This document shows positions 45,112 through 60,292 of a stretch of DNA of 64,000 nt, piece after piece; position 1 is the first letter of the stretch, and each line of letters starts with the position of its first letter. The position numbers were made by a program, and so were the translations under genes. Under the pieces are notes generated by a model, which was given only the letters and a program-made list of their open reading frames with translations, ran no database searches and was not told where the DNA came from. This DNA comes from Aurelia coerulea (taxonomy: Eukaryota > Cnidaria > Scyphozoa > Semaeostomeae > Ulmaridae): NCBI GenBank assembly GCA_039566865.1, contig CM076947.1:3107501-3171500 (forward strand). The letters run 5' to 3'.

Positions 45112-45113
45112 CA

Positions 45114-45519
45114 TACACTCGCCGCTAGGGACAGCACCCCTCCCAAGCAAAAAATATTAGAAAGAGGTATGACGCGGTATTGGGTTCAAAAATGATTGAT
45201 CGTGATTTTAGGTGTCCGTGGTGTCACATACAAGTCATGATGGTTAGTTCTCGTGATGGTGAATTGTACAGGTCGTGGTAACACTTGTTGATTGGCGTAA
45301 ATGTTGTTTGTCGTGGTTACTCCCAGTGATCATTGTCGGTAGTTCATGTGCCATTAACTGCGACGAGTCATGGTGATCCTTGTTGACCGTAATCGTAATC
45401 ACCTTTGTCTCGTTGGGGTAACTTCAGCATGTCGTGGTTGCTTAACCTTGTCGTGGTAGCTTTAGCCTGTCGTGGGAACTTCACCTGGTCGTGGTAACAT
45501 GCGCAGTTGGAATGCGCAG
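45114..45519. repeat. Left terminal inverted repeat of the HECT/integrase element
   Basis: 406 bp, from TACACTCGCC to GGAATGCGCAG. The motif GTCGTGGT (or TCATGGT) followed by two or three bases and C recurs at least six times between about 45273 and 45498, like clustered transposase-binding sites. It is uninterrupted here. Confidence 0.9.
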
Positions 45520-45583
45520 ATGCGCAGAAGCCACGTGGCACGTGCTGTCTTCTTGGTGGAAACCATCCAACTATGCTGCAAAC

Positions 45584-48500
45584 ATGGACGATAACAACGA
45601 TAAAGTAAAGTCTGTGTACGAGCTAGCTCGGCAATTCGTGCTAGCTGCACGTGAAAAGATCGAAGAAGAAGTAGGGCAAACAACATCACAATCGTCCTCA
45701 CAATCTGCAAATTCTGTTAATGGCAGAAACGCGGGGTTTAGCTGCAGGCCTATCAGCGTCAGCATTGCAAACACCATGCCATCTTCGTTTGGCCAAAGGG
45801 TGGCCGCGAATTTCAGGTAAGGTGTTGTCGCTTACTTCACTGCAGCACAAATAAAACAGGAAGTGTAGTGTGTCTTTGTTAACATTTTCATCAAATTTGT
45901 AGGAAAAGTTTGTTGTGGGCAGGGATTATAATAACAACACATTTTACAACAACTTAATGACTTGCCCCCCCCCCCCCCAACAAAGGAGATTCCAGTTTAT
46001 CACAAGAGTCCAGAGTCAAATACATAAATTCAGCACACTTTCAATCACGAACCATGTAAAGGCTTTAATTACCAATGCTACAAACAGTTAGGAGAGAAAG
46101 GAGATGGACAGTAGATAATAATAATAATACTTTACGAATATTTCAACAGGATAACTTATCAATATTTACAATATTGTTATCATTAGGGTCCTGCAAAAGT
46201 CAAGATGGCTACTGACTGAGTTATGAATATTGATCAGAAGGGTTTCTTCCACTCCCAGGCTAGGGGGCAGGGGGGTACTTCATTAGACCTGCTTCTGGAC
46301 TTTGGAGAAAGGACCCATATATATGTATGACAGAATATTGAAGAATTGTTAACCCATTTGTATGAATATGAGGAAATTTCTAACACATGTGTTCAAATTT
46401 GGTTGATTTGAAGATGCAAGGTCTATCTATTCCATATTTCTTCAGTTTTGACTAGCTAGACGCTGTTGTTGTCATTGTTGCTGCGCAAAATGTTGTCTTT
46501 TCTGGAATTCATCATTTTTCAAGCAAAATACGAGGACATTTTCAGTTGTTTGGTGTGGATAATCATTATGGGGCCCATTGAGAAGAAATTCTGGCAAAAA
46601 ATCACCCATCTACCAGAATTAAGGTTACAAATACATATACCCATTTTTAGGGAATTTCATGTGAAAAACTCACCTACTGTATATGAACGGCATGACCACT
46701 TAACAATGAAGTACCCCCTGGGAATTCACTGTCATCGATCAGCTAAAAGGAAACTATTGACAACTTCTTTGCTGATGAAAAAGTATTAGGCTTTTCAGTA
46801 AGAAGTGACTGAACTCTAGGGTAATGCTCCTGTTTGCTGTTTTGTAGATCATCATTTCCTGGGTTATCTTCGACTTCCGTGAAGCACAAAGAGCTCAGAA
46901 CATCTATCACCAAAAATCCTCATCAGAAGAAAGCATTTTTTCCATATGAAGTAAAAGAAAGCTGGACACACGAATTTTGTTGCATACCATACACATTTTC
47001 ACGTGAAACACCAAGCTCAAATGTGATGAGCCTTCTCAAAGCTTCAGGTCTTGGCAAAACCAAAGTTTGTTTCCCAAATAAAAAAGCAAAGCATGTAGAA
47101 TTTTGTCAGAAAATTGAAGAAGTCTTCCCTGCGTTGTCAACATGTGGAGGCTACACACTGCTCAAAGGAAGGGGTGGTGGAACATGCAGGCCTTTGGAGA
47201 AATTGGAAGTTAATTGGTTCAATATTGAGGATATCAAAAAGTGCATTGTGGGAACAGCATGTATTTACATTAGGCCAATTCAAAGAAATCTGGACCTGGA
47301 AATGAGGAAACAGGTAATGATTAAAGATGATGTACTGTAACTATATCAATAACCCCCTTAGTTTTTAAACTTTCATAGTCTACGTAATAAAACTCCAATA
47401 AAAAAGCCACCTATGCCACATTAGTAATGGAAGGGTCAATTCTTTTATTATAGGTGCCTGTACAAAAATACAAGGCTAAACTTGGCCTTGTGGAGGCCAA
47501 GTTTTAGCCTTGTAGAGGGGATTATGACCTTGTTATTACCTTGTACTAACCTTGGAAGAAAATTACAAGGCTATCAGTAAGATTCCAAGCTGCAACCAGT
47601 CTAACACAAGGTTTCCACAAGGCTTCTACAAGGCTAATTAGCATTTTTCAAGCCATTTACAAGGTTACAGCAAGGCTATTCCAGGCTATTACAAGGTTAC
47701 AAGGCCATAACTACAAGGCCTGTACATGGCTATTACATGGCCTTGTATTTTCGTACAGGTGGCATGCAAAAAAGACAAAAGAATCATTTGGACTTGCCCC
47801 CAGGAAATTTTCATGACCGCACTCCCTTTAGATCGCTGGAAACACCCCATTTCTAGAGAATACAATTGATCAGGTCTTCTTGGAAAATTGTAAAAAGATT
47901 TTTTTGAATTTCACAAGTACGTAGATTATTTTTGAATGACAAAGCTGGGGGGCGCGTGCCCAGACGAACGTTTGGGAGCGATTGATCGCGCACCCGGTTA
48001 TAAAATATTTCCCTCAAAAAGAGCAATGTCAGATTCGAGAATTCACACTGGAAAACTTTATGGGCAAATTATTTTTTGGTTTCAACCATACCTTGTACCT
48101 CCCTGATGGTGATTTTAATGGATGGATGCAGTTGAAATACAGGACTTTATTTGCTCTTTATTTGCTCTATTACAGGAATCTATGTATGTTAGTATGCATG
48201 TAACATTTAATGAAGAAATTAAAAGTTAGGTGTAGCATAAATTGGGGAAAGCATAGATCTAATTACAGGGTGTACAATATAATATAAGATACAAAAGTTA
48301 AAACTATATAATCTAAAAACATACCCAGTTAAAAATGTCTCACTTGAAGGAAGGAAATGTTCACAACAGAAAGAAAACAATATTTCATGTCTCAATATTT
48401 GAGAGTAATGCTGCATTTTCAAGGTCTGTTTACTGCACCCAATATTTGGGGTTTCCTTGTAATGCAGCCTAACTCCTACATTTTAGATCACAAAGAGTGT

Positions 48501-51186
48501 TCCAGGCCCAGACCTTACATGTTTGGAGTGCCTCAAGAGCGTTCCAAGTGCAGAAATGGAAATGCACATGAAGAAGTGCAAAGACATGAAGGTATCTATT
48601 TTTTCATAAGAAACAGTAACTGCATTTACCATTGGGAGTCTGCTGGGCCATGCGCCATGCAAAAGTGGGGTGGAGAAGGGATCCCCTTGCACCCTCCTTG
48701 CCCCTAAAATGTTTAGGCAACTATAACAAAAATGGTGAATGTCAGTTCTCATTTGTTGTATATCCTTATGAAGATGCCAGGCCTTACCAGGAGGAAAAAA
48801 GCCAGAGCTGCATAAAGCTCTTAAAACATTGCTTTCTTTTTGAAATTTGTAGAAATCTTCAACATGGAGACTAACTGATCTTCAACAAAGACCAAATCGT
48901 ACATCAAAATCTAAAAATTAAAAACATCTCTGCACAACAGTTTATTTTTAAGAAGCTCGTAACCGTAAGTTTAAAAATGTTAGGCTTTTTCTAATCGCTG
49001 AAACAAACTACTGCGAAATAGAGCAAAATGAAATATGAAGAAATGCAGCCAAATTGCAAAATATGGTCAAATAAGCACAATGTTATTTTTTATTCTGAAT
49101 TTGGTGACCAAAGCTTGATTTTAATTTGATTTTAGGCCTATTAAAAGTGATAATCAGCGAAATGTTGTGATAATCTTGCCATTATGTTATCAAGTTCCTG
49201 TCTTATTTCCAAAGCAGTATTCCCTTGATGATTGTTTCAAATTATAGACGCTTTTTGCCAATGTTAACTTTCCAGAGACAAGAGTTAGCCTAAACTGTTG
49301 AAATATCTGCTGCAATCTCATGGTTATCTGAAAGGAAGGAAACAGTGAAGCCAAATGCTCTTCCTGATCTATAAATCAATCTTAGATAAAATAAACTGAA
49401 AGGGAATAGACATAGCTATAACTCGTAGCCACTATAAATAGGCTGAAGAAACACCCACAAACCCATTTGTTTCCTCAGTTACAGATATGGCAAAAAAATT
49501 TCATGAAATGTAATTCCAGTTTTAGTTATTTAGAATTTATAGTATGCATTGTTATGTTCTAGGGCAAGGTTGAAGACCAGAATGATGCAGAGGGCTGTGC
49601 TATTTGCCTTCATAGTTTGGGCTATGGGGAGCTATTGGCAGCAACTGACAGTTGCAACTGTCTTTTCCATCAGGTGTGTCTCAGTCAATGGCAAAGAGTG
49701 CATCATGGGGAAAAAGATTGTCCAAAGTGTCATGCAAAATTTCTTGATGTGATCTTCCTTACAGATCTTACTGGTGCTAGCTGTGAGACCCAAGTGACAG
49801 GAGAAAAGTCAAACTTGGCAACAAGACCCAATATTGACACTCAAGAAACTGCTGTGCGTCCAGATGAGTTTAATGATTGTTCTTCCTCTGTTTCAAGTAA
49901 AGACAAGCCCTCAACGCTGGCTGAAGCCCTTCAAAGGAAGTTGGTGGATGAATGCCAAAAACGTCAAACCGACATCAAGAGAGAAGGTGAGATTGATGAT
50001 GAATACAATGAGCATGTGTGCATTAATATGCATGTAAGAAGAACACAGTTCTGGCCAGACCTTTGTGCCCAAATTGAAGATATGGATGAGGAGGACTGGA
50101 AGCCAAAAATCAGAGTGGTATTTGTAGGCGAAGCTGGTGTGGACACTGGGGGGTTAATGCGTGAATTTTACTCACTGCTGTATAAAAGTGTACAAGGCCC
50201 ACTCATGAGAGGTCAGTCTCCATATTTGACCTTTACACATGACCAAACGGCCCTTAATAAGAGAATGTACGAGCTGTTTGGCAAATTGGTTGCCATCGGA
50301 ATCCTAAATGGTTTGCCGGGCCCTAATTACTTAGCTGAAGTGCTGGCACGACACATCTTAGAGCATGAGTTACTGGAAGATTGTGATGCTATTAGCAAAG
50401 AATTGCCTGGAGATACTGAACAAGCAGTAGCATTGAAAGAAAAGCTTGAGGCATTGAGTAAGAGCAAGGATCAATCTGCATGCAATAAAATGTTTGATGA
50501 TCTTGAAGAAAGATTTGATTTTGGGTATACAGCAATGAGTCTTGACAAGGTAGCATTGTTTCAAGCAGCAGGAAAACACTTCATTGTAAGCTCCTGTTTT
50601 GAGGAAATTGAAAGTTTCAAGGCTGGTTTGATGACCTTTGATGTTCTCCCTATTCTAAAAGCATACAAGAAGGAAGCACTTCTAGTTTTCACTGAGCAAG
50701 AATTGTCTGTCAAGGACATGGAAGAAATGTTCAGTGCAAAACTAGGACTCCCTGGTTGCAATGAACGAGCAAAGGAGGAGACAGTGCTTTTCAATTGGTT
50801 CTCTTTTCTTAAGAGTTGCAAAAAGGGTAAAATTTCCAGAAATGTTATTTCTCTGCAAAGCATTGAGAGCCGAGTAGAAGTTGATGACCAGGAAATCATA
50901 GCAACCGTTGGATCAAACACAACTCCAGGAGATACAAGGGTTCTTTTCCTCAATGATGTCTTACAGTTCATTACAGGATCTTATCACAAACCAGCTGTTG
51001 GTACCCGAGGTTATATTGAATTTGACACACAGTGCTGATGAATCTTCAGGGGCCAGGATAGTTGCAAATACATGTGCAGCTACCCTAACTGTTCCCACTA
51101 CCAAAAGATACACTGGATCACCAAAATAATTTATTGCACATTTTTCTGATTATATCTTTGAAGGTCTAGACTTTGGAAGATACTAA
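45584..51186 (+). pseudogene. UBZ/RING/HECT E3 ubiquitin ligase (G2E3-like), C-lobe broken
   Basis: Four exons join in phase: 45584-45816, 46848-47313, 48487-48591 and 49563 onward. The first ATG (MDDNNDKVKSVYELARQF) gives a Ser-rich N-terminus, then a domain with SWTHEFCCIPYTF and GYTLLKGRGGG. Exon 3 encodes a UBZ-type finger (C245, C248, H260, C264). Exon 4 starts with a RING-like finger (CAICLHSL...CLFHQVCLSQW...CPKC), then HECT from about residue 445 (IRVVFVGEAGVDTGG, LFGKLVAIGILNG). The C-lobe runs to GTRGYIEFDTQC and TGA at 51036. The catalytic-Cys segment GARIVANTCAATLTVPTTKR is in another frame, then TAA at 51127 and an in-frame tail FIAHFSDYIFEGLDFGRY to 51186. An active ligase would transfer ubiquitin from E2 via that Cys; this copy probably cannot. 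Confidence 0.85.
47457..47759. mobile_element. MITE built of ACAAGGC repeats, in intron 2 of the HECT gene
   Basis: Ends CCTGTACAAAAATACAAGGC and (reverse complement) CCTGTACGAAAATACAAGGC. The interior repeats ACAAGGCTA/ACAAGGTT on one strand and GCCTTGT on the other. Target duplication unclear. It does not touch exons. Confidence 0.65.
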
Positions 51187-51419
51187 ATGCAATTGACTGA
51201 ATTAATTGTCTTCAATTTAAACACAGCATTCGTTTTGTTTGTAATAGAGTTTTGTTCAGTAGCACCATATTTCCTCAGTTAAGTGCACATACCACTTATC
51301 ACACCAATATTTTTAGATGGCTTGGAGTCATAAATTCACTCACAGATGACAATATATCCAACAAATCTATGATTCTAAGACTACCTTAAAAATCTAGGAT
51401 TCTAAGACTACTTATATGA

Positions 51420-52212
51420 CGAAACTCAGACCGGTCTGAGTTTCAGATCGGTTCAAAACTCATTTTTGCAATCGAAGCCCTTGGAGTTCTCACATGACAC
51501 TGGCAAAATGAAGATCAGGTCAACCTGAAACTCATTTCGGTTTCTCGGGTTGGTTTGAGTTTTCAGGTCGACCTTTTCAGGGCGCAATGAATTTTCAAAA
51601 CAAATAGGAGTGAGAGTCCTTGTGTTCCTTTGGCAATCAAAACAATCAAGATTCCATTCAAAGTCAGCCAGCCTGATCTAACTGTTTTAAAGTGAAAAAA
51701 TGATAAAATCTATTTCATTCAAAGTCAGCTAGCTGGATCTAAGACGACCCTCACATGAGAAACTCAGACCGACTTGAGTTTCAGATCGGTTCGAAGTTTG
51801 GCTGTGTATGCTAATTTGCCTCCCCCTCACATGAACATTCTCAGATCGGTTTGAGTTTAGCTCACTTGCTCTGCACATGCGCATTTCACAAAAATTTTCC
51901 TAAATACAAACAATGCGTGCGTTCCCAGTCAATCAGAACAATTATGATTGGATTGTTGAAGATATATCTTGGTTTCTTTGATTGCCAAAGGAACACAAGA
52001 AATGTTACTCACACCTTGTTTCTGCTCACATAAAAATTTCAGGTCGACCTGAAAACTCAGACCCACCTGAGAAACCAAATGAATATCAAGTTTATATACG
52101 AGTTCCATTTCGCCTGCGTCATGTGAGCACTCCAAAGGCTTTGACCGCAAACCGAGACAAGTTTCAAACCGATCTGAAACTCAGATCAGTCTGAGTTTTT
52201 TAATGTGAGGGT
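51420..52212. mobile_element. Palindromic MITE (CTCAGACCG/GATCTGAAACTC)
   Basis: Left arm near 51427 (GAAACTCAGACCGGTCTGAG) and right arm near 52165-52200 (CTGAAACTCAGATCAGTCTG) are inverted. CCTTTGGCAATCAAA at 51628 is mirrored by TTTGATTGCCAAAGG near 51977. A second end-like block, CCCTCACATGAGAAACTCAG at 51747, suggests a nested or rearranged copy. It lies between the convergent HECT and integrase genes. Confidence 0.6.
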
Positions 52213-52781
52213 ATTAATCTAAGAATCCAAAAATATCTCTTGGTCGTGGATTGCAAGTCTAAATAATATTACTGTTCAGCTTTAATTTGTTACCGCGCTT
52301 GACTGCACATTGTAGAATTAGAAATAATTACTTTTGTTGCTAACATTGTTCTGTTTTACATTTGAAGAATGAAAATAATATGGAAGGGCAAGGGGAGGTA
52401 TTCCACTGTCTGGTCATGTCTGGGATGAATGTTCCGTTAGCTTTTGGCAAACAATTCTGGAAATGGGGGTACTTTTGTTGGGAATTTCCTGGGATTAGGG
52501 TCTAGTTTTTACTAAAATTGCTGGTAATGTCCTTTTTAGGTGAATTTTAATGTTAGGTAATGCAAAAGTCGTGGTAATACTTTGTTTACGGTTGCACAAA
52601 AATAATACAGTTGTTTCATTTGTAGAAACCTCATTTGTATTCTAGGCCTAAATTCTGAGAGTACGTCATAACAGAGATCCTTTTGGCGCATCCCCATGTA
52701 TCGCGCAATTGTGAAGTGCCTCCCCTTGGGTGGAATGGGTCTTGATAAAATCGTATGTATGAGAAAAAAGATTGCATTATA
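52213..52781. other. Non-coding spacer between convergent genes
   Basis: A+T-rich, no feature recognised before the integrase stop codon. Confidence 0.45.
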
Positions 52782-55700
52782 TTAAGTGCTGAAAAGTTGA
52801 TGTACTGCTTCTAGTGTCTGTAAATAGATGTCAATTCCGAAGCTATCACTCTTCTGACAAGGATTCACCAAAGACTGTAATGCTTGGGCATTACTGGGGC
52901 TCAGCGTAAAATTGTTCGTGGGTACAATTATACCATAATCCTGTTCGTTGCAAGCAGGTCCTTCGTAGTCAATTCCATACATTTGAGCATCTTCCTGAAA
53001 TAGCAAGTACAATTTACACTGAGGGGATGGAATATCTACGTACTATTTTTTATAAAGATCGCAACCCTCGTATCGCAAAAAATATGAAACTCTCGCACTG
53101 GAAAGACTGTACTCAAGCAACTATCTATTTTAGCCATTGAAATCCGTTGCATTTTGTTATCTTTGGTGATTACGCTGTGCATTTGATTTGCGTAAGGTGT
53201 ATGATATACTGTCGTCTGTAAATGTGTCTTTGAAACTCTGAAAGTTGTGACATTACATAACGACTGAATTCCCTGAATTCGTTTCAGCTCCACTACAGTT
53301 TTAACCTCGAGCTACCACGGGGGGGGGGGGGGGGGGACATTGTCATTTAAAAATAGATAAGGATGTCCCGAAAAAAGTGTTTCCTTGTTAGAAGATCATT
53401 GCTGCTAAAGTACTTGTGCTCCAGGTTGGAAAACTTGCTTTCACTCGCAGCTATGAAACTCTGTCAAACTCGCTGCTCGCAGCTACAATAATGGGTTCTC
53501 ACAAGCCAGAACGAAAGATCTATTGCTAATTTTGCTTCTCTCGCAGCTTTTTAAACTCTTCTTAAAGTCCACTCGCAGCTCGCACCTTCAAATTTATTTC
53601 ACTCGCTACTACGCGTAGGCCAAATCACGCATGTTTTCCAACCTGGCTTGTGCTATAATCGTATGCAGTGCATTTTCTAATAGGGAAAAAATTGAAGGAG
53701 TTTTTCATGCATTTTTGGTACTTTTCAAAATAATCTTCATAGTGTATTCGCATGTTTCGAAAATAGTTCTTCCTACTGGGTGTCCCAAAAAATTACTCCT
53801 GTTTAAAAAAGTCACCAAAAATTGATTATCAAACCTTTGATAAAATGTCCTTTTTGAGTTGTTTTGTCAAAGGCCCAAAAATATTCATAGATGATAAAAT
53901 GTTTGCTTTTGATACAGCAAGGTAGAACAATTACAAGTTGAAAAACCTTATTTTGAGCCATAGTTTTTAAGCAAAATACTCAATCTTGCCTAAACGAGTC
54001 AAAATTTTCAGATTTTCTATCATCATTGAGGTCTGCCATTTGTGATTATGACCAAACTGGAAGCTTTGCATGCATAAAAAAATTGATCTGGCAATCATCA
54101 GTGCTTTTTTGCAGTATGATTCAAAACATATAGCCCTAAAAGAGTTAAATTTGCTACTTTTTAAGCCAATTGCAAGATCAGCTATACAGTGGAAAATAAT
54201 TTGGTCCTGGATATACTTCTTGACAAAGAAGACGAAGAAAATTGAAGATCGGTCGTGAAATCAAATTTTGGCGATTTTTCAAATAGGACTACTTTTGTTG
54301 GGACACCCGGTTTAGAGCTGGGAAACGGACCCCAAATGCATGATCAAGAAGAAAAATCTATTCTGATTAAGCAAGCAAGAGGGAAATTTTGTTTGAGTCA
54401 CTGTAGTTGTTTGGAAACTTACGTCAGATGATGGCTCCCATATTTCTTGCGATATGTTTGAGCTAGAAGCCACTATGTTGTGCAGACCCATGATCCACAA
54501 TTGATTTGGGGTCATATTTCCAGCACTGCTTATCTTGTGTGAGTCCCAGCCGGTAGCAAACATGTTTAAATGATTGTTTATTCTAGGAACGAATACAAAT
54601 TGCAAGCAAAAGTGATGCATTTCATTATCAATGTCAAATAATTCTTCTGACTCCAAATGACTGAATACGCAGTAGTATATATATAGTACACCCGTGTAAA
54701 CATCCACCCAAAGCCTTTCAATCCTTTGGTTGTGGACACTTTTGCCAGCGATAAAACTGCCTCTATCTGGTCCACGCATGGGATTGCTAAACATAAATGC
54801 TGCAACATCGACATTTTCAATACCTTGATCGCCTCTGACTCGGGATGGCAGTCCATGTTCTTCAACAGCTTCAAGAAACGCCGATAGAACGGTTAGAGCA
54901 GTATTGTTTGAACTACATCTTAGGAACATAATTTTTCGGGAATATCCATCGATACAGCCGTGGACCACAAGACGCCATCTGAAATCGGATATACAAAGGA
55001 CGCATCAAATATATAAATGTGACAAAGAAATAAACATGAACGGGAACCGGGATAAAAGAAACTGTTATCAGGCTAGAAATTCCAAAGGTAAATGTTTTAG
55101 GACAGGCTACTAAAGATGGAAAGGACAAATTTACTGTGAAATTGTTCTTTTGTTGTCAATATATTTGATGAGTTTGGGCACCCCTTGGAAATAGCTGAAA
55201 TGTTTCGTATTGCTTGTTTAGTGCTACAGCTGAATACCCACAACAAGCTTTTTGACATCGCAACATGTGACAAAATTATAAAGTATGATACAGGCCTTTT
55301 TGTTGTCAAATTTGTTACAGTAGCTCTGACGGAGACCGACCAACCGGACCTACAGTACATATTTTACAATATGAAGTGTACCTGATTAACTTATGGTTGC
55401 CGTCTAAGTGCCACAGTGAGAGTGGACCAGCAACACTATACTTTCTGCGATAGATGAGTTTTACTTGCATTGATCGAAGTAGGACTCCTTCAGGGTCAAC
55501 ATTTCTCATGGAGGAGCGGACTCGTGATTCCTGCACTCTTACTTTCCTGCTTTCCAAAATGCCACTCATTCGTCTGTATCCGCAATTTGGGAAGTCCTTG
55601 AGAATGTCTTCAACTAGTTTATCCAACTCTGTATCGCTTAGGTCACAGTATTGCTGGGAGATGGAAAATCCGTAGTGTTTCATTCTCCTCTTTATAGTGC

Positions 55701-57201
55701 TCTTGCTAACGTGAATCATTCTTGATATCTTAGAAACTGAGAAACCGTACGCGATATAAAGTTCTAGCTGTTCCTTAGTGATGTTAAATGCAGGCCTGCC
55801 TTTGTAATCACGTTTTTCCTTTTCGGGGACATACCCATACCATGCGTCTTTGTTTGCACGTGCAAAAATTTCTGCAGCTTTGCCCATGAAATCTAAAACT
55901 TCCAATGGGATTGTGTACACTTCTGCGTAACGCTTTACTATGTGAAAAATATTGTCAATACGGAAAGCCAGGCCATCAATTGATGTATCGTCAAACTGTG
56001 CTTGTTCAATTTGATTTGCAATGCTTGTTAGAATTTCTTTGACATGGTGCAAGATTGTAATTGGTGGAGGAGTTATACACTAGAAAAAGAAAAAAACGAG
56101 GGATTTGCTGACATGACGCCTTTTTTCAGAACGAAGGCCGCTAGGAAGTGGGGGGGGGGGTGGCTAAGTAGTTGTGAAACAATTATGCTAGGTTACAACA
56201 TGCATAAACAAAATATATAGGGTCTCTATTGTTCATGAACAAAGCCCAAATCAACAACTTCATGCGGCCCTACCATATGTGAGAAATTTATCCTTTTCGT
56301 TAATTTCAAATATGAATTTAATGAATCAACAGTACACTTTTCACAATGAGTTTCAAAACTGCTGTGAATTTAAATGGTGAGTCCTAGAATGGATGCACGT
56401 ATTTTTATAGAACTAAGAATTTCGGCCAGTACTGAAAGTATCTTAAAATTATCAGATTTTGAGTTCTTGGAGTTTCAATATGAGTTTCTTAAAAGTTCCA
56501 TAACAATCTTCATGTTCACTACCTGCCCCCTTCAGAACATTTCAACACAAAGTTTTTCAAGCCTTTCCTATACTTCGACTTTACTCATATACCTTCCCAG
56601 TAATATGAAACGGGAAACGGGTGAAAATGAAGTAAAAATATATTAAGGATTCTCTTTGTCAAAATAAATAGATGGTTTCTTAAAAGCAATCTGTCCCCTA
56701 TTGTTCTGATCTTGGTTACTGCTTTATTTACCTTATTTACGCTGCAGCTAAATTCATGCATCACTGAGTCTCTATAGTCTATGACCCTGATTTCTTTGGA
56801 TAAAGCGAATTAACACCAACTTCTGGAATACACAATATAAATCTTTATCGATTTTATTTTCATTCATCGAAGGGGGCAGATTGCCGTTAAGTACAGGTTT
56901 CCCAGTGCTGGAGTTTCTTATTTTTTGGCGATCTAAGAGTCGAGTTTCTTGTAAACATTTCTTTCGTAACGTAACCCTGACGTACTACGATCTAGGCCCA
57001 ACTTTAAACGCCAATACTGAGCATCGCTTACGCATTTTGCTCAAATAACAGTCAGATCTTCCTTACTTTGCCCCCATGAGTCCCCCATGTTGGCCCAGCA
57101 GTCGGATTTAATATCTAATCCCCAAATGCGACTTTGCAATTGGAAAATAACTCTAGTATCGATGTCTACAAATCAAATTGTTTAGCAACACTTACCGCCA
57201 T
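52782..57201 (-). CDS. IS3-like DDE integrase/transposase, rva_4 type, 490 aa
   Basis: Four minus-strand exons: 57201-57196 (ATGGCG, GTAAGT donor), 56079-55382, 54978-54423, 52994-52782. They total 1473 nt, exactly 490 codons plus stop, and every junction keeps frame. An HTH ([38 protein letters not shown]) lies at about residues 101-142. An IS3-type second HTH ([19 protein letters not shown]) lies at about 155-200. The catalytic core has D228 ([11 protein letters not shown]), D285 ([12 protein letters not shown]) and E322 ([11 protein letters not shown]), the last pair 36 residues apart as in IS3 and retroviral integrases. The C-terminus has [10 protein letters not shown] and [16 protein letters not shown]. 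All motifs are intact, so it is potentially active. It probably cuts and joins the element ends. The 2-codon first exon is the least certain part. Confidence 0.85.
53324..53337 (+). repeat. Poly-G run
   Basis: About 14-15 consecutive G in the last intron of the integrase gene. Length may be an assembly uncertainty. Confidence 0.8.
53776..54310. mobile_element. Tc1/mariner-type MITE in the integrase last intron
   Basis: Ends CTGGGTGTCCCAAAAAATTA and (reverse complement) CCGGGTGTCCCAACAAAAGT; both continue to a TTT-AAAAA block. TA precedes the left end; the right flank reads TTTA, so the duplication is imperfect. Entirely inside the intron 54422-52995. Confidence 0.65.
56393..56975. mobile_element. 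Inverted-repeat element A, copy 2 (no piggyBac insert)
   Basis: Reverse complement aligns with 3301-4255 across both halves: CACGTATTT end, TAAAATTATCAGATTTTGAG, CATAACAATCTTCATGTTCA, and at the far end TTTTTGGCGATCTAAGAG with GTTTCTT. At the position where copy 1 has its TTAA-flanked insert this copy reads straight through (TTCATATTACTGGGAAGG on the minus strand). Lies in the first intron of the integrase gene. Right boundary approximate. Confidence 0.75.
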
Positions 57202-57723
57202 TTTCTTGTAGTGAAGCCACTTATTAGGCCCTTCGGACAGCAGCTGCTGTTTGCGCATGTTAGAAGACACAAGAAATTGTACAAAAAAGTTCCATGACGA
57301 GGCAAGCACGGGTTTTACCACGATCAGCTGATGTTCTTCCCATCACCGGCTAATGATACATATATTTTAAACTGCGCATTCCAACTGCGCATGTTACCAC
57401 GACCAGGTGAAGTTCCCACGACAGGCTAAAGCTACCACGACAAGGTTAAGCAACCACGACATGCTGAAGTTACCCCAACGAGACAAAGGTGATTACGATT
57501 ACGGTCAACAAGGATCACCATGACTCGTCGCAGTTAATGGCACATGAACTACCGACAATGATCACTGGGAGTAACCACGACAAACAACAATTACGCCAAT
57601 CAACGAGTGTTACCACGACCTGTACAATTCACCATCACGAGAACTAACCATCATGACTTGTATGTGACACCACGGACACCTAAAATCACGATCAATCATT
57701 TTTGAACCCAATACCGCGTCATA

Positions 57724-58927
57724 AAAGAGGCCAATGTGAACTTCATTATGAGGCTAATGTTGATCGCAATGGTGATCGCGATCTTGATTGCAACCCTTGA
57801 TTCAAAGAGTGATTGCTGTGTCCATCAGAGATAATGGCAGACACTTCGCAGTTGGATGGTTCTTTTTGAAACATTTCTCAATAAATGTAATCGAAAGTAT
57901 TTGAATTTCCTTATTTCTGGTAAACTGTGAAATTAATTTTTGGGAGTTTTATCACAGGTTCATTTCGCTGTTGATTTATCTCTCTTTGAAAAACAGCGTA
58001 TTTTCTTATTGAGAATGCAGCAAAACAACAATCATCTCGTATTTTGCAGAACTTATGTTCCGTTTTGACTTTAAACAACTTTTCTGCGCTTCCCTGTGGT
58101 CTCTGCGTTTTCTCCTGGCATTTTCTCATTTTCTTTGCATTCCATTTTGGTCTTCGTTCAAATCTCTTCATAATAAATGGTATTGTTTATTTGAACGAGA
58201 CAAAATAGTGTGTTACATCAATTTGGCTTCATTCTTTGTTTTATATTCATATACTTTCAATGACAACTTCCGCACGTCATGTAGGATTCTTATTGACGTC
58301 ACATCTGTCAGAATTTCTTCCAGGCAGACTTTGCTGGTTTTTCCTAGAGTTATTTTTGTTGTAGCCTGCGCACAGACTTTACTATTTTGCGGTAAAGTCT
58401 GTGCGCAGGCTATTTTTGTTGTATTGAATGTGCACAGGGAAACTCCAAAATGTGTTGTGCAGAGCACAAAAGTAGTGAGACAATATAGGCGTCTTTGTGA
58501 TATTGCATCTAGGATTTTACGCAGCAAACAGGATTGTATTCTGGAGACAAAGCTTTGAAAATTAATCTGCAAGTTCAATGGGCCTAAACTGAGGTGAATT
58601 TTACTTAATGCACAAAATCTCGTACACCTTTGGCAACATCCTTTTGTTTTCAAGAAAAATCCATCATAACTTTATAGTCACATTTGAAATGAAAGATGTC
58701 CAAAAAACCGTTACCTGATACCAAAAGTGGGAATAACAGTATACGCAGAAAACATAATATCCAAATGCTAAGCTAAGTAATTGGTAATCTTGTTTCCCCA
58801 GCTCCACTGCTATGTGTCTGCCATTGTTTCTGATGCACATGGCAATCACTCTTTGAATCAAGAGTGGCAATCAAGATAAAGATCACTATTGCGATCAACA
58901 TTAGCCTCATATTGAAGTTCACCTTGG
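57724..58927. mobile_element. 1.2-kb inverted-repeat element B in the right terminal repeat
   Basis: Ends AAAGAGGCCAATGTGAACTT and (reverse complement, including 7 flanking bases) AAAGAGGCCAAGGTGAACTT continue for about 90 bp (GAGGCTAATGTTGATCGCAA). Absent from the left terminal repeat, which shows the empty site. No credible gene inside; it holds the 51-bp hairpin at 58362. Confidence 0.75.
58362..58412. mobile_element. 51-bp minimal hairpin element with 9-bp TSD
   Basis: TAGCCTGCGCACAGACTTTAC, nine loop bases, then its exact reverse complement, flanked by TTTTTGTTG on both sides (58353-58361 and 58413-58421). The TAGCCTG ends and the 9-bp duplication match the Academ-like element at 33673. 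It appears to be little more than two fused terminal repeats. Confidence 0.8.
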
Positions 58928-58988
58928 CCTCTTTCTAATATTTTTTGCTTGGGAGGGGTGATGTCCCTAGCGGCGAGTGTACACAAAG

Positions 58989-59580: not shown

Positions 59581-60292
59581 GTCGAGCCTCGAGCCTTAGA
59601 GCCTTGTGTTTCGAGCCTCGAGCCTTCGAGCCTTGTGTTTCGAGCCTCTAGTCTGGAGCCTCCTTTTTCGAGCCTCGAGCCTTGTATTGCAGGCTACATA
59701 TTGCCTGACTGCATTAAACATAATAACAAATGAGGCGAAATGTTTTAATGAAGGTATATATCAACTAAGAACACAGAAATCTAACAATACCCTAGAAAAC
59801 TATATTTTGAACATGAGATTGAAAGCAACAACGACATAAGAACTTAAGACATAAGAGCCTTTTTCACCCTTGAGAAACCTGTCTTCTCACAATTGTGCTC
59901 ACAGATTTTGCAGCGATTCTTGCTGTTGCCGTGATTCAAATCCTAGCAATTTTAAGTGAGATTTCTGTTGAAATTTGTCATAGGGCTTTAATGGGTCCTT
60001 TTGAAGTCCTTTCAACAAAATTAAATTATCTTTGCCAAAAAATTAGAGCATTAACAATTTATTCAAGCATTGGAGCATTATTATTAACAATTTAAGAAAG
60101 AGACATCTGGTATCAAAAATGGCCTAAAATTTAAGAAACTGGCTGCCAACGCTGGGCCTAAGTTTCTCACAGAAAATAAAGATAAAGTTAAATGATTGAG
60201 GTCTGTTGGCTCATGATATACAACAGGAAGGCTCGAGGCTCGAAACATAAGGCTCGAGGCTCAAAACACAAGGCTCGAAGGCTCAAAGTTTA
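59579..60292. mobile_element. Foldback element with GAGCCTCGAGCC-repeat arms
   Basis: 59579-59693 is tandem TCGAGCCTCGAGCCTTGTGT-like repeats; 60229-60292 is the reverse complement (AAGGCTCGAGGCTCGAAACA). Between them is 535 bp of unique sequence without a supported gene. The left arm interrupts the LINE tail. Target duplication not determined. Confidence 0.65.

Follow-up and report, generated by a model that had tools for sequence, protein, structure and literature searches.

Results

A transposon with two facing genes in the Aurelia coerulea window

The window analyzed here, a 64,000-nt stretch of an Aurelia coerulea contig (CM076947.1, positions 3,107,501 to 3,171,500 of assembly GCA_039566865.1), contains an IS3EU-like transposon, named family A, in which a predicted HECT-type ubiquitin ligase gene and a DDE integrase gene face each other between long terminal inverted repeats. 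Coordinates without a contig name are positions in this window, and those with a C prefix refer to contigs of the same genome. The terminal repeats of the window copy are 352 bp each, 99% alike and about 12 kb apart. The initial annotation of this DNA had described inverted repeats of about 400 bp separated by 12 kb; the long repeats and their spacing were borne out, while their true positions proved to be 45168-45519 and 57372-57723. The features of the transposon, with the basis for each, are as follows.

45168..57723, 12,556 bp: IS3EU-like two-gene transposon, family A, complete (inverted repeats and two complete copies elsewhere)
45168..45519, plus strand: left terminal inverted repeat, starting TATGACGCGG (ends fixed by comparing copies)
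57372..57723, minus strand: right terminal inverted repeat, finishing CCGCGTCATA (ends fixed by comparing copies)
45161..45167: left target duplication, AAAGAGG (sequence)
57724..57730: right target duplication, AAAGAGG (sequence)
45584..45816, plus strand: HECT gene, exon 1 (splice model)
46848..47313, plus strand: HECT gene, exon 2 (splice model)
48487..48591, plus strand: HECT gene, exon 3, with a C2HC (UBZ-like) finger seen by eye (splice model)
49563..51185, plus strand: HECT gene, exon 4, a disrupted frame with RING-like and HECT domains (splice model, Pfam and copy comparison)
57196..57258, minus strand: integrase gene, exon 1 (splice model)
55382..56079, minus strand: integrase gene, exon 2, with helix-turn-helix matches below cut-off and the first catalytic D (Pfam and splice model)
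54423..54978, minus strand: integrase gene, exon 3, rva_4 core with the second D and the E (Pfam and splice model)
52782..52994, minus strand: integrase gene, exon 4, C-terminal (start set by tblastn with two related integrases)

As the initial annotation had proposed, the repeats enclose two convergent, spliced genes that start close to them; the distance inward from the repeat is about 65 bp for the HECT start codon, on the left, and about 115 bp for the start of the integrase, on the right. The window integrase matched rva_4 (PF24764) with 227 bits, over the Pfam cut-off, and its predicted splice model carries a D247, D304, E341 catalytic triad; this is the triad earlier given as D228, D285 and E322, with the same spacing and a numbering shifted by a constant 19. 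In the predicted splice model of the HECT gene, AG and GT stand at the internal exon borders. The open frame of this gene in the window copy stops at 51038, through a break upstream of the active-site cysteine that is followed by a later stop codon, so that the catalytic cysteine is out of frame. Of the other copies, those at C5:16.1 Mb and C2:31.4 Mb keep an open frame, and that at C9:6.35 Mb is interrupted by an internal stop.

The assignment of this facing gene was examined by domain and structure searches. With Pfam cut-offs of 23.9 bits for HECT and 27.3 bits for RING, the window exon scored 22.6 and 22.8 bits, respectively, both under the cut-offs, and the open copy at C2:31.4 Mb scored 27.6 bits for HECT, over the cut-off, and 22.6 bits for RING, under it. 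In exon 3, where the C2HC pattern was seen by eye, all Pfam zinc-finger models stayed under their cut-offs. Thus, of the UBZ/RING/HECT architecture first suggested, the HECT domain is supported in an open copy, the RING part stays below its cut-off and the UBZ part rests on inspection. A protein search with the family A HECT sequence returned one near-identical protein (7,993 candidates sharing the most words were scored), and the HECT tail aligned weakly with the tail of HUWE1. Folded alone, the family A HECT exon gave an unusable model (predicted local distance difference test score, pLDDT, 36); a model built with six families reached pLDDT 53 and serves as support only, all of its 50 listed structural matches being HECT ligases with low template modeling (TM) scores. 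Together, these data indicate that the facing gene is, by prediction from its sequence, one for a HECT-type ubiquitin ligase belonging to the element.

Family A has moved recently and lies within another element

Two more complete copies came to light when the same genome (574 Mb, 294 contigs) was searched. They lie at C5:16,108,042-16,121,260 and C2:31,423,627-31,436,256, carry the two genes between two ends, and are flanked by perfect target duplications of 6 bp, GCCAAG and GAAGAG, respectively. Identity is 96-99.6% across both genes, and comparison of the copies confirmed the ends of the window copy at 45168 and 57723. The copy at C9:6.35 Mb, which was read from one end only, also has both genes, and the loci at C9:6.74 Mb and C2:17.06 Mb have one end and partial sequence each. 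Where both genes are present, at four places, the copies agree at 100% in the integrase core exon and at 99-100% in the HECT exon. These near-identical copies with duplications of their own show that family A has moved recently; they do not indicate the source of the moving proteins.

Shorter, gene-less relatives with two ends and repeats about 81-86% similar to those of family A were also present, and 6-bp duplications were read by eye at 12 of the 12 such loci fetched. That the repeats might recur as independent solo elements had been raised at the outset as a point against the pairing; these loci proved instead to be short elements with 6-bp duplications, of the kind expected for non-autonomous derivatives.

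The target duplication of the window copy, AAAGAGG, is 7 bp and not 6. The same motif is present once, in unoccupied form, in the opposite (right) arm of a second element that surrounds the transposon, near 58925-58945. The family A transposon is therefore inserted into the left arm of this outer element of about 1.3 kb, of which two pieces remain outside it.

45112..45167: outer host element, left piece (inverted-repeat map and genome search)
57724..58983: outer host element, right piece, flanked by CAAAG (inverted-repeat map and genome search)

The arms of the outer element form two pairings, of 45114-45167 (54 bp) to 58928-58981 and of 57724-57852 to 58806-58934. The outer element is an independent high-copy family with at least 149 matches in the genome (40 of 1,348 first-look candidates scored). 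It is about 1.3 kb long, has inverted repeats of about 175 bp and no long gene, and is unrelated to the HECT element. The CAAAG noted initially at both transposon ends thus borders the outer element and not the gene-bearing one, and transposon ends at 45112 and 58983 were ruled out, both belonging to the abundant outer family.

Other repeats were observed at this locus. A 226-bp element at 53421-53646, with ends CCAGGTTGG...CCAACCTGG and flanked on either side by the 8-bp direct repeat CTTGTGCT, interrupts an intron of the integrase gene in the window copy; the three other copies compared lack it. We take it to be hAT-like, judging by its ends and duplication length. Between the convergent genes, 51411-52209 holds inverted and direct repeats in a complex pattern, including AAACTCAGACCG units, and short GAGCCT-rich repeats cluster in either orientation at 59591-60284, just beyond both elements.

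The same gene pair occurs in diverged families

Diverged relatives of both genes were read in the same genome and grouped as further families. An R1 element at C9:3,995,058-4,004,345 (9,288 bp) encloses a convergent HECT-integrase pair between 264-bp, 98% identical repeats (TATGGCGCGCC..GGCGCGCCATA), with TGACGT on both sides. Identity between R1 and family A is 45% in the integrase core and 27% in HECT (R1 sister copy at C1:29.3 Mb). An R3 element at C22:1,299,624-1,308,396 has ends TATGGGGTGCC..GGCACCCCATA with repeats of 495 bp, 89% alike. In the stretches read, transposon ends were not found for R2, R4 and R5. The terminal regions of R3 include a minisatellite of ACATGGTGCC.. units, the copy number of which differs between copies (L031 1-158 and 7953-8312; L037 1692-2110).

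The rva_4 scores range from 227 to 266 bits across families A, R3 and R4. A search of PDB sequences with the R3 integrase gave no match at E 0.01. An R4 integrase has many relatives: 2,731 of the 7,991 candidates scored pass, and the 120 of them listed include named ones from cnidarians, which account for most, and from sponges, a hemichordate and fish. The HECT domain scored 54.2 bits in R3 and 35.4 bits in R4, over the cut-off, and 17.9 bits in R1, under it, and the R2 HECT open reading frame (ORF) had no HECT-domain match up to E 0.05. The RING-like stretch was seen in A and R5 only, of the six families aligned. A protein search with the R3 HECT sequence returned 44 relatives, the named ones including proteins of a sea anemone, fish, a hemichordate and a nemertean. 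The statement that both gene families are multicopy in cnidarians and fish agrees with the names of these relatives, the searches giving no copy counts.

HECT and integrase genes are paired across the genome

We then asked how often the two genes lie together. HECT loci were listed using queries from three families, which gave 85, 88 and 53 matches (87 of 215, 88 of 310 and 91 of 91 candidates scored), and integrase loci using queries from two families, which gave 150 and 136 matches (150 of 373 and 136 of 378 scored). The merged lists, which are lower bounds, hold at least 152 HECT-like and at least 171 rva_4 integrase loci. The results showed that 67 of the 152 listed HECT loci lie within 15 kb of a listed integrase, and that 64 of these pairs are convergent, 2 tandem and 1 divergent. 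The convergent pairs have a median gap of 2.4 kb, and 56 of the 64 are separated by 5 kb or less. When the integrases were shifted inside their contigs 5,000 times, convergent pairs averaged 3.7 with a maximum of 23, and pairs in any orientation averaged 9.2 with a maximum of 32 (67 observed).

Integrase copies lacking any HECT gene had been named at the outset as evidence that would speak against a joint element. The downstream side was therefore opened at four integrases without a listed partner, chosen for having related copies and not at random, and a convergent HECT ORF over the Pfam cut-off was found in 4 of 4: at C5:5133844 (L043, 25.3 bits), which was partnerless before the third HECT query, C22:4818937 (L044, 26.8 bits), C9:4378349 (L046, 44.1 bits) and C3:20447511 (L047, 31.5 bits). 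At C3:20447511, the first 4.5 kb downstream held no HECT, and the gene lay just past this distance. Separately, four similar HECT loci (C22:13382760, C3:13401316, C2:16522457 and C9:17934876) have no listed integrase within 15 kb; they may belong with another transposon, or with an integrase so divergent that our queries missed it.

The two further complete copies of family A, the R1 element and the 64 convergent pairs support the proposal that ligase and integrase are the two genes of one mobile element. The pairing is general across many distantly related transposons of this one genome, and transposons of this group look as if they regularly carry the ligase as their second gene.

The ligase is constrained between families

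Codon positions of the HECT gene were compared between families. At fourfold-degenerate sites, 29-33% were identical against 26% expected (four pairs, 34-69 sites each), and at second codon positions 56-65% were identical (four pairs, 336-470 codons). As far as codon patterns can tell, HECT thus shows purifying selection between families. This between-family test was used instead of within-family ratios of nonsynonymous to synonymous change (dN/dS), which rest on few changes and on several copies set against one shared reference. The pooled integrase ratio was set aside, the R3 integrase row in it having been read out of frame. HECT open frames of 404-719 amino acids persist, and 9 of the 10 families read have a cysteine where the catalytic one is expected (register by eye for four outside the alignment). 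HECT is less conserved than the integrase: family A and R5 share 35-39% of HECT and 64% of integrase residues, and A and R4 share 25% and 62%.

Discussion

A predicted ubiquitin ligase as probable accessory enzyme of a transposon

We consider it probable, on balance, that family A is a two-gene cut-and-paste IS3EU transposon whose long-travelling HECT ligase serves as an accessory in trans, most likely on host nuclear proteins. In this mechanism, the integrase would be the transposase, cutting and joining the long terminal repeats, and the HECT ligase would act in trans as an accessory enzyme; it would most likely ubiquitinate host nuclear proteins that limit transposition or the repair that follows integration. 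Host targets are favored because HECT changes faster than the integrase and because its front-end domains vary between families, and the sequence comparisons thus make a ligase acting on host factors the most likely reading.

Several observations weigh against this interpretation. HECT is broken in the window copy and carries a stop in the C9:6.35 Mb copy, whereas the integrase core exon is intact in all four copies. The structural model of HECT is weak, with pLDDT 53 and query-normalized TM-scores of at most 0.39, and R4 carries a serine at the catalytic position. There is little constraint within families: HECT shows 12 amino-acid and 2 silent changes in R1, and 2 and 0 in R3, and its pooled dN/dS among near-identical copies is 0.55 (P 0.04, with reference copies shared). 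The flanks of the R3 element at C22:1.3 Mb do not match, leaving no target duplication there. Finally, 85 of the 152 HECT and 103 of the 171 integrase loci have no listed partner, in lists that are lower bounds.

Alternatively, the ligase might act on its own integrase, so that turnover limits copy number or clears a stable integration complex for gap repair. The constant co-occurrence of the two genes would suit a matched enzyme and substrate, and families A and R5 as well as R1 and R2, the closest integrase pairs with similar HECT, agree in both proteins. However, HECT evolves faster than the integrase, unlike what tight co-adaptation would give, and R4 joins an A-like integrase (62%) to a very different HECT (25%). 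We regard this target as possible but rather unlikely. It is less likely still, and in our judgment improbable, that the ligase rides along as cargo, derived from one or more captures of a host gene and playing no part in transposition. Transposons of this kind do carry varied second genes, as far as the portion of the fungal study available to us describes them (PMC12730594), and the frequent HECT loci with no listed integrase would fit such cargo; against it stand the constraint between families, the cysteine in 9 of 10 families, the convergent arrangement of 64 of the 67 pairs and the HECT gene at all four opened integrases. That HECT and integrase come from separate elements brought together by chance between the repeats of nested elements has a negligible probability and is refuted by the complete copies, the R1 element and the shuffle control: the elements are indeed nested, with another element supplying the outer 54 bp and the CAAAG, but the 352-bp ends move with both genes, and 64 convergent pairs stand against 3.7 expected.

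Returning to the ligase as an accessory enzyme acting on host proteins, a broader proposal seems to us about evenly balanced between true and false: that animal IS3EU elements by rule combine a DDE integrase with a facing HECT ligase needed for efficient spread, and that the large families of genes annotated as 'G2/M phase-specific E3 ligase-like' in cnidarians, fish and other animals are mostly transposon genes, each adapted to the defense or repair proteins of its own host. If transposases of many diverged families regularly keep such a ligase at their side, protein tagging would join the means by which mobile DNA works against its host, or with it. Two puzzling gene expansions would then have a plain explanation, as both families would multiply by jumping together; this idea, put forward with the initial annotation, agrees with the pairing in the present genome and leaves the loci with no listed partner outside it. 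Caution is also called for with annotations, in which many animal HECT 'genes' may be transposon genes. The pairs now available make both the target of the ligase and the need of transposition for it testable.

Comparison with known systems

IS3EU elements are described, in the part of the source that characterizes the superfamily, by TA..TA termini, usually 6-bp target duplications and an IS3-like DDE transposase (PMC10045372). TA..TA termini are present in the family A copies, R1 and R3, and 6-bp duplications were found as GCCAAG, GAAGAG and TGACGT and in 12 of 12 short relatives, the exceptions being the window copy (7 bp) and R3 at C22 (none). Family A is assigned to IS3EU because of its TA..TA ends, 6-bp duplications and rva_4 integrase, features it has in common with that description. 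The same description, in this part of the source, names no ubiquitin ligase, whereas family A, with a length of 12.6 kb, has a facing HECT gene in addition (PMC10045372). Our literature searches found no report joining IS3EU with a HECT ligase, a note in Repbase Reports remaining possible.

Proteins annotated in fish, a hemichordate and a nemertean as 'G2/M phase-specific E3 ubiquitin-protein ligase-like' are 26-33% identical to the R3 HECT; they are annotated as host genes. Helitrons offer another case of a transposon encoding a ubiquitin-system enzyme, since they carry VTD and OTU deubiquitinase domains. As the relevant section of that report presents them, these are deubiquitinases of rolling-circle elements held within the element's own large protein, in contrast to the separate ligase gene of family A (PMC9741609).

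A further parallel is found in fungi, where IS3EU elements with TET/JBP are described, in the excerpted account, as having an alpha-kinase gene opposite in orientation to the transposase (PMC12730594). They belong to the same superfamily and, like family A, have a second enzyme gene facing or opposing the transposase. The second gene of the fungal elements is one for an alpha-kinase, at times separated from the transposase by a TET/JBP dioxygenase gene, whereas in family A it is predicted to encode a HECT ligase. Judged against this excerpt, a facing second enzyme was already known for IS3EU, but not a HECT ligase in that place.

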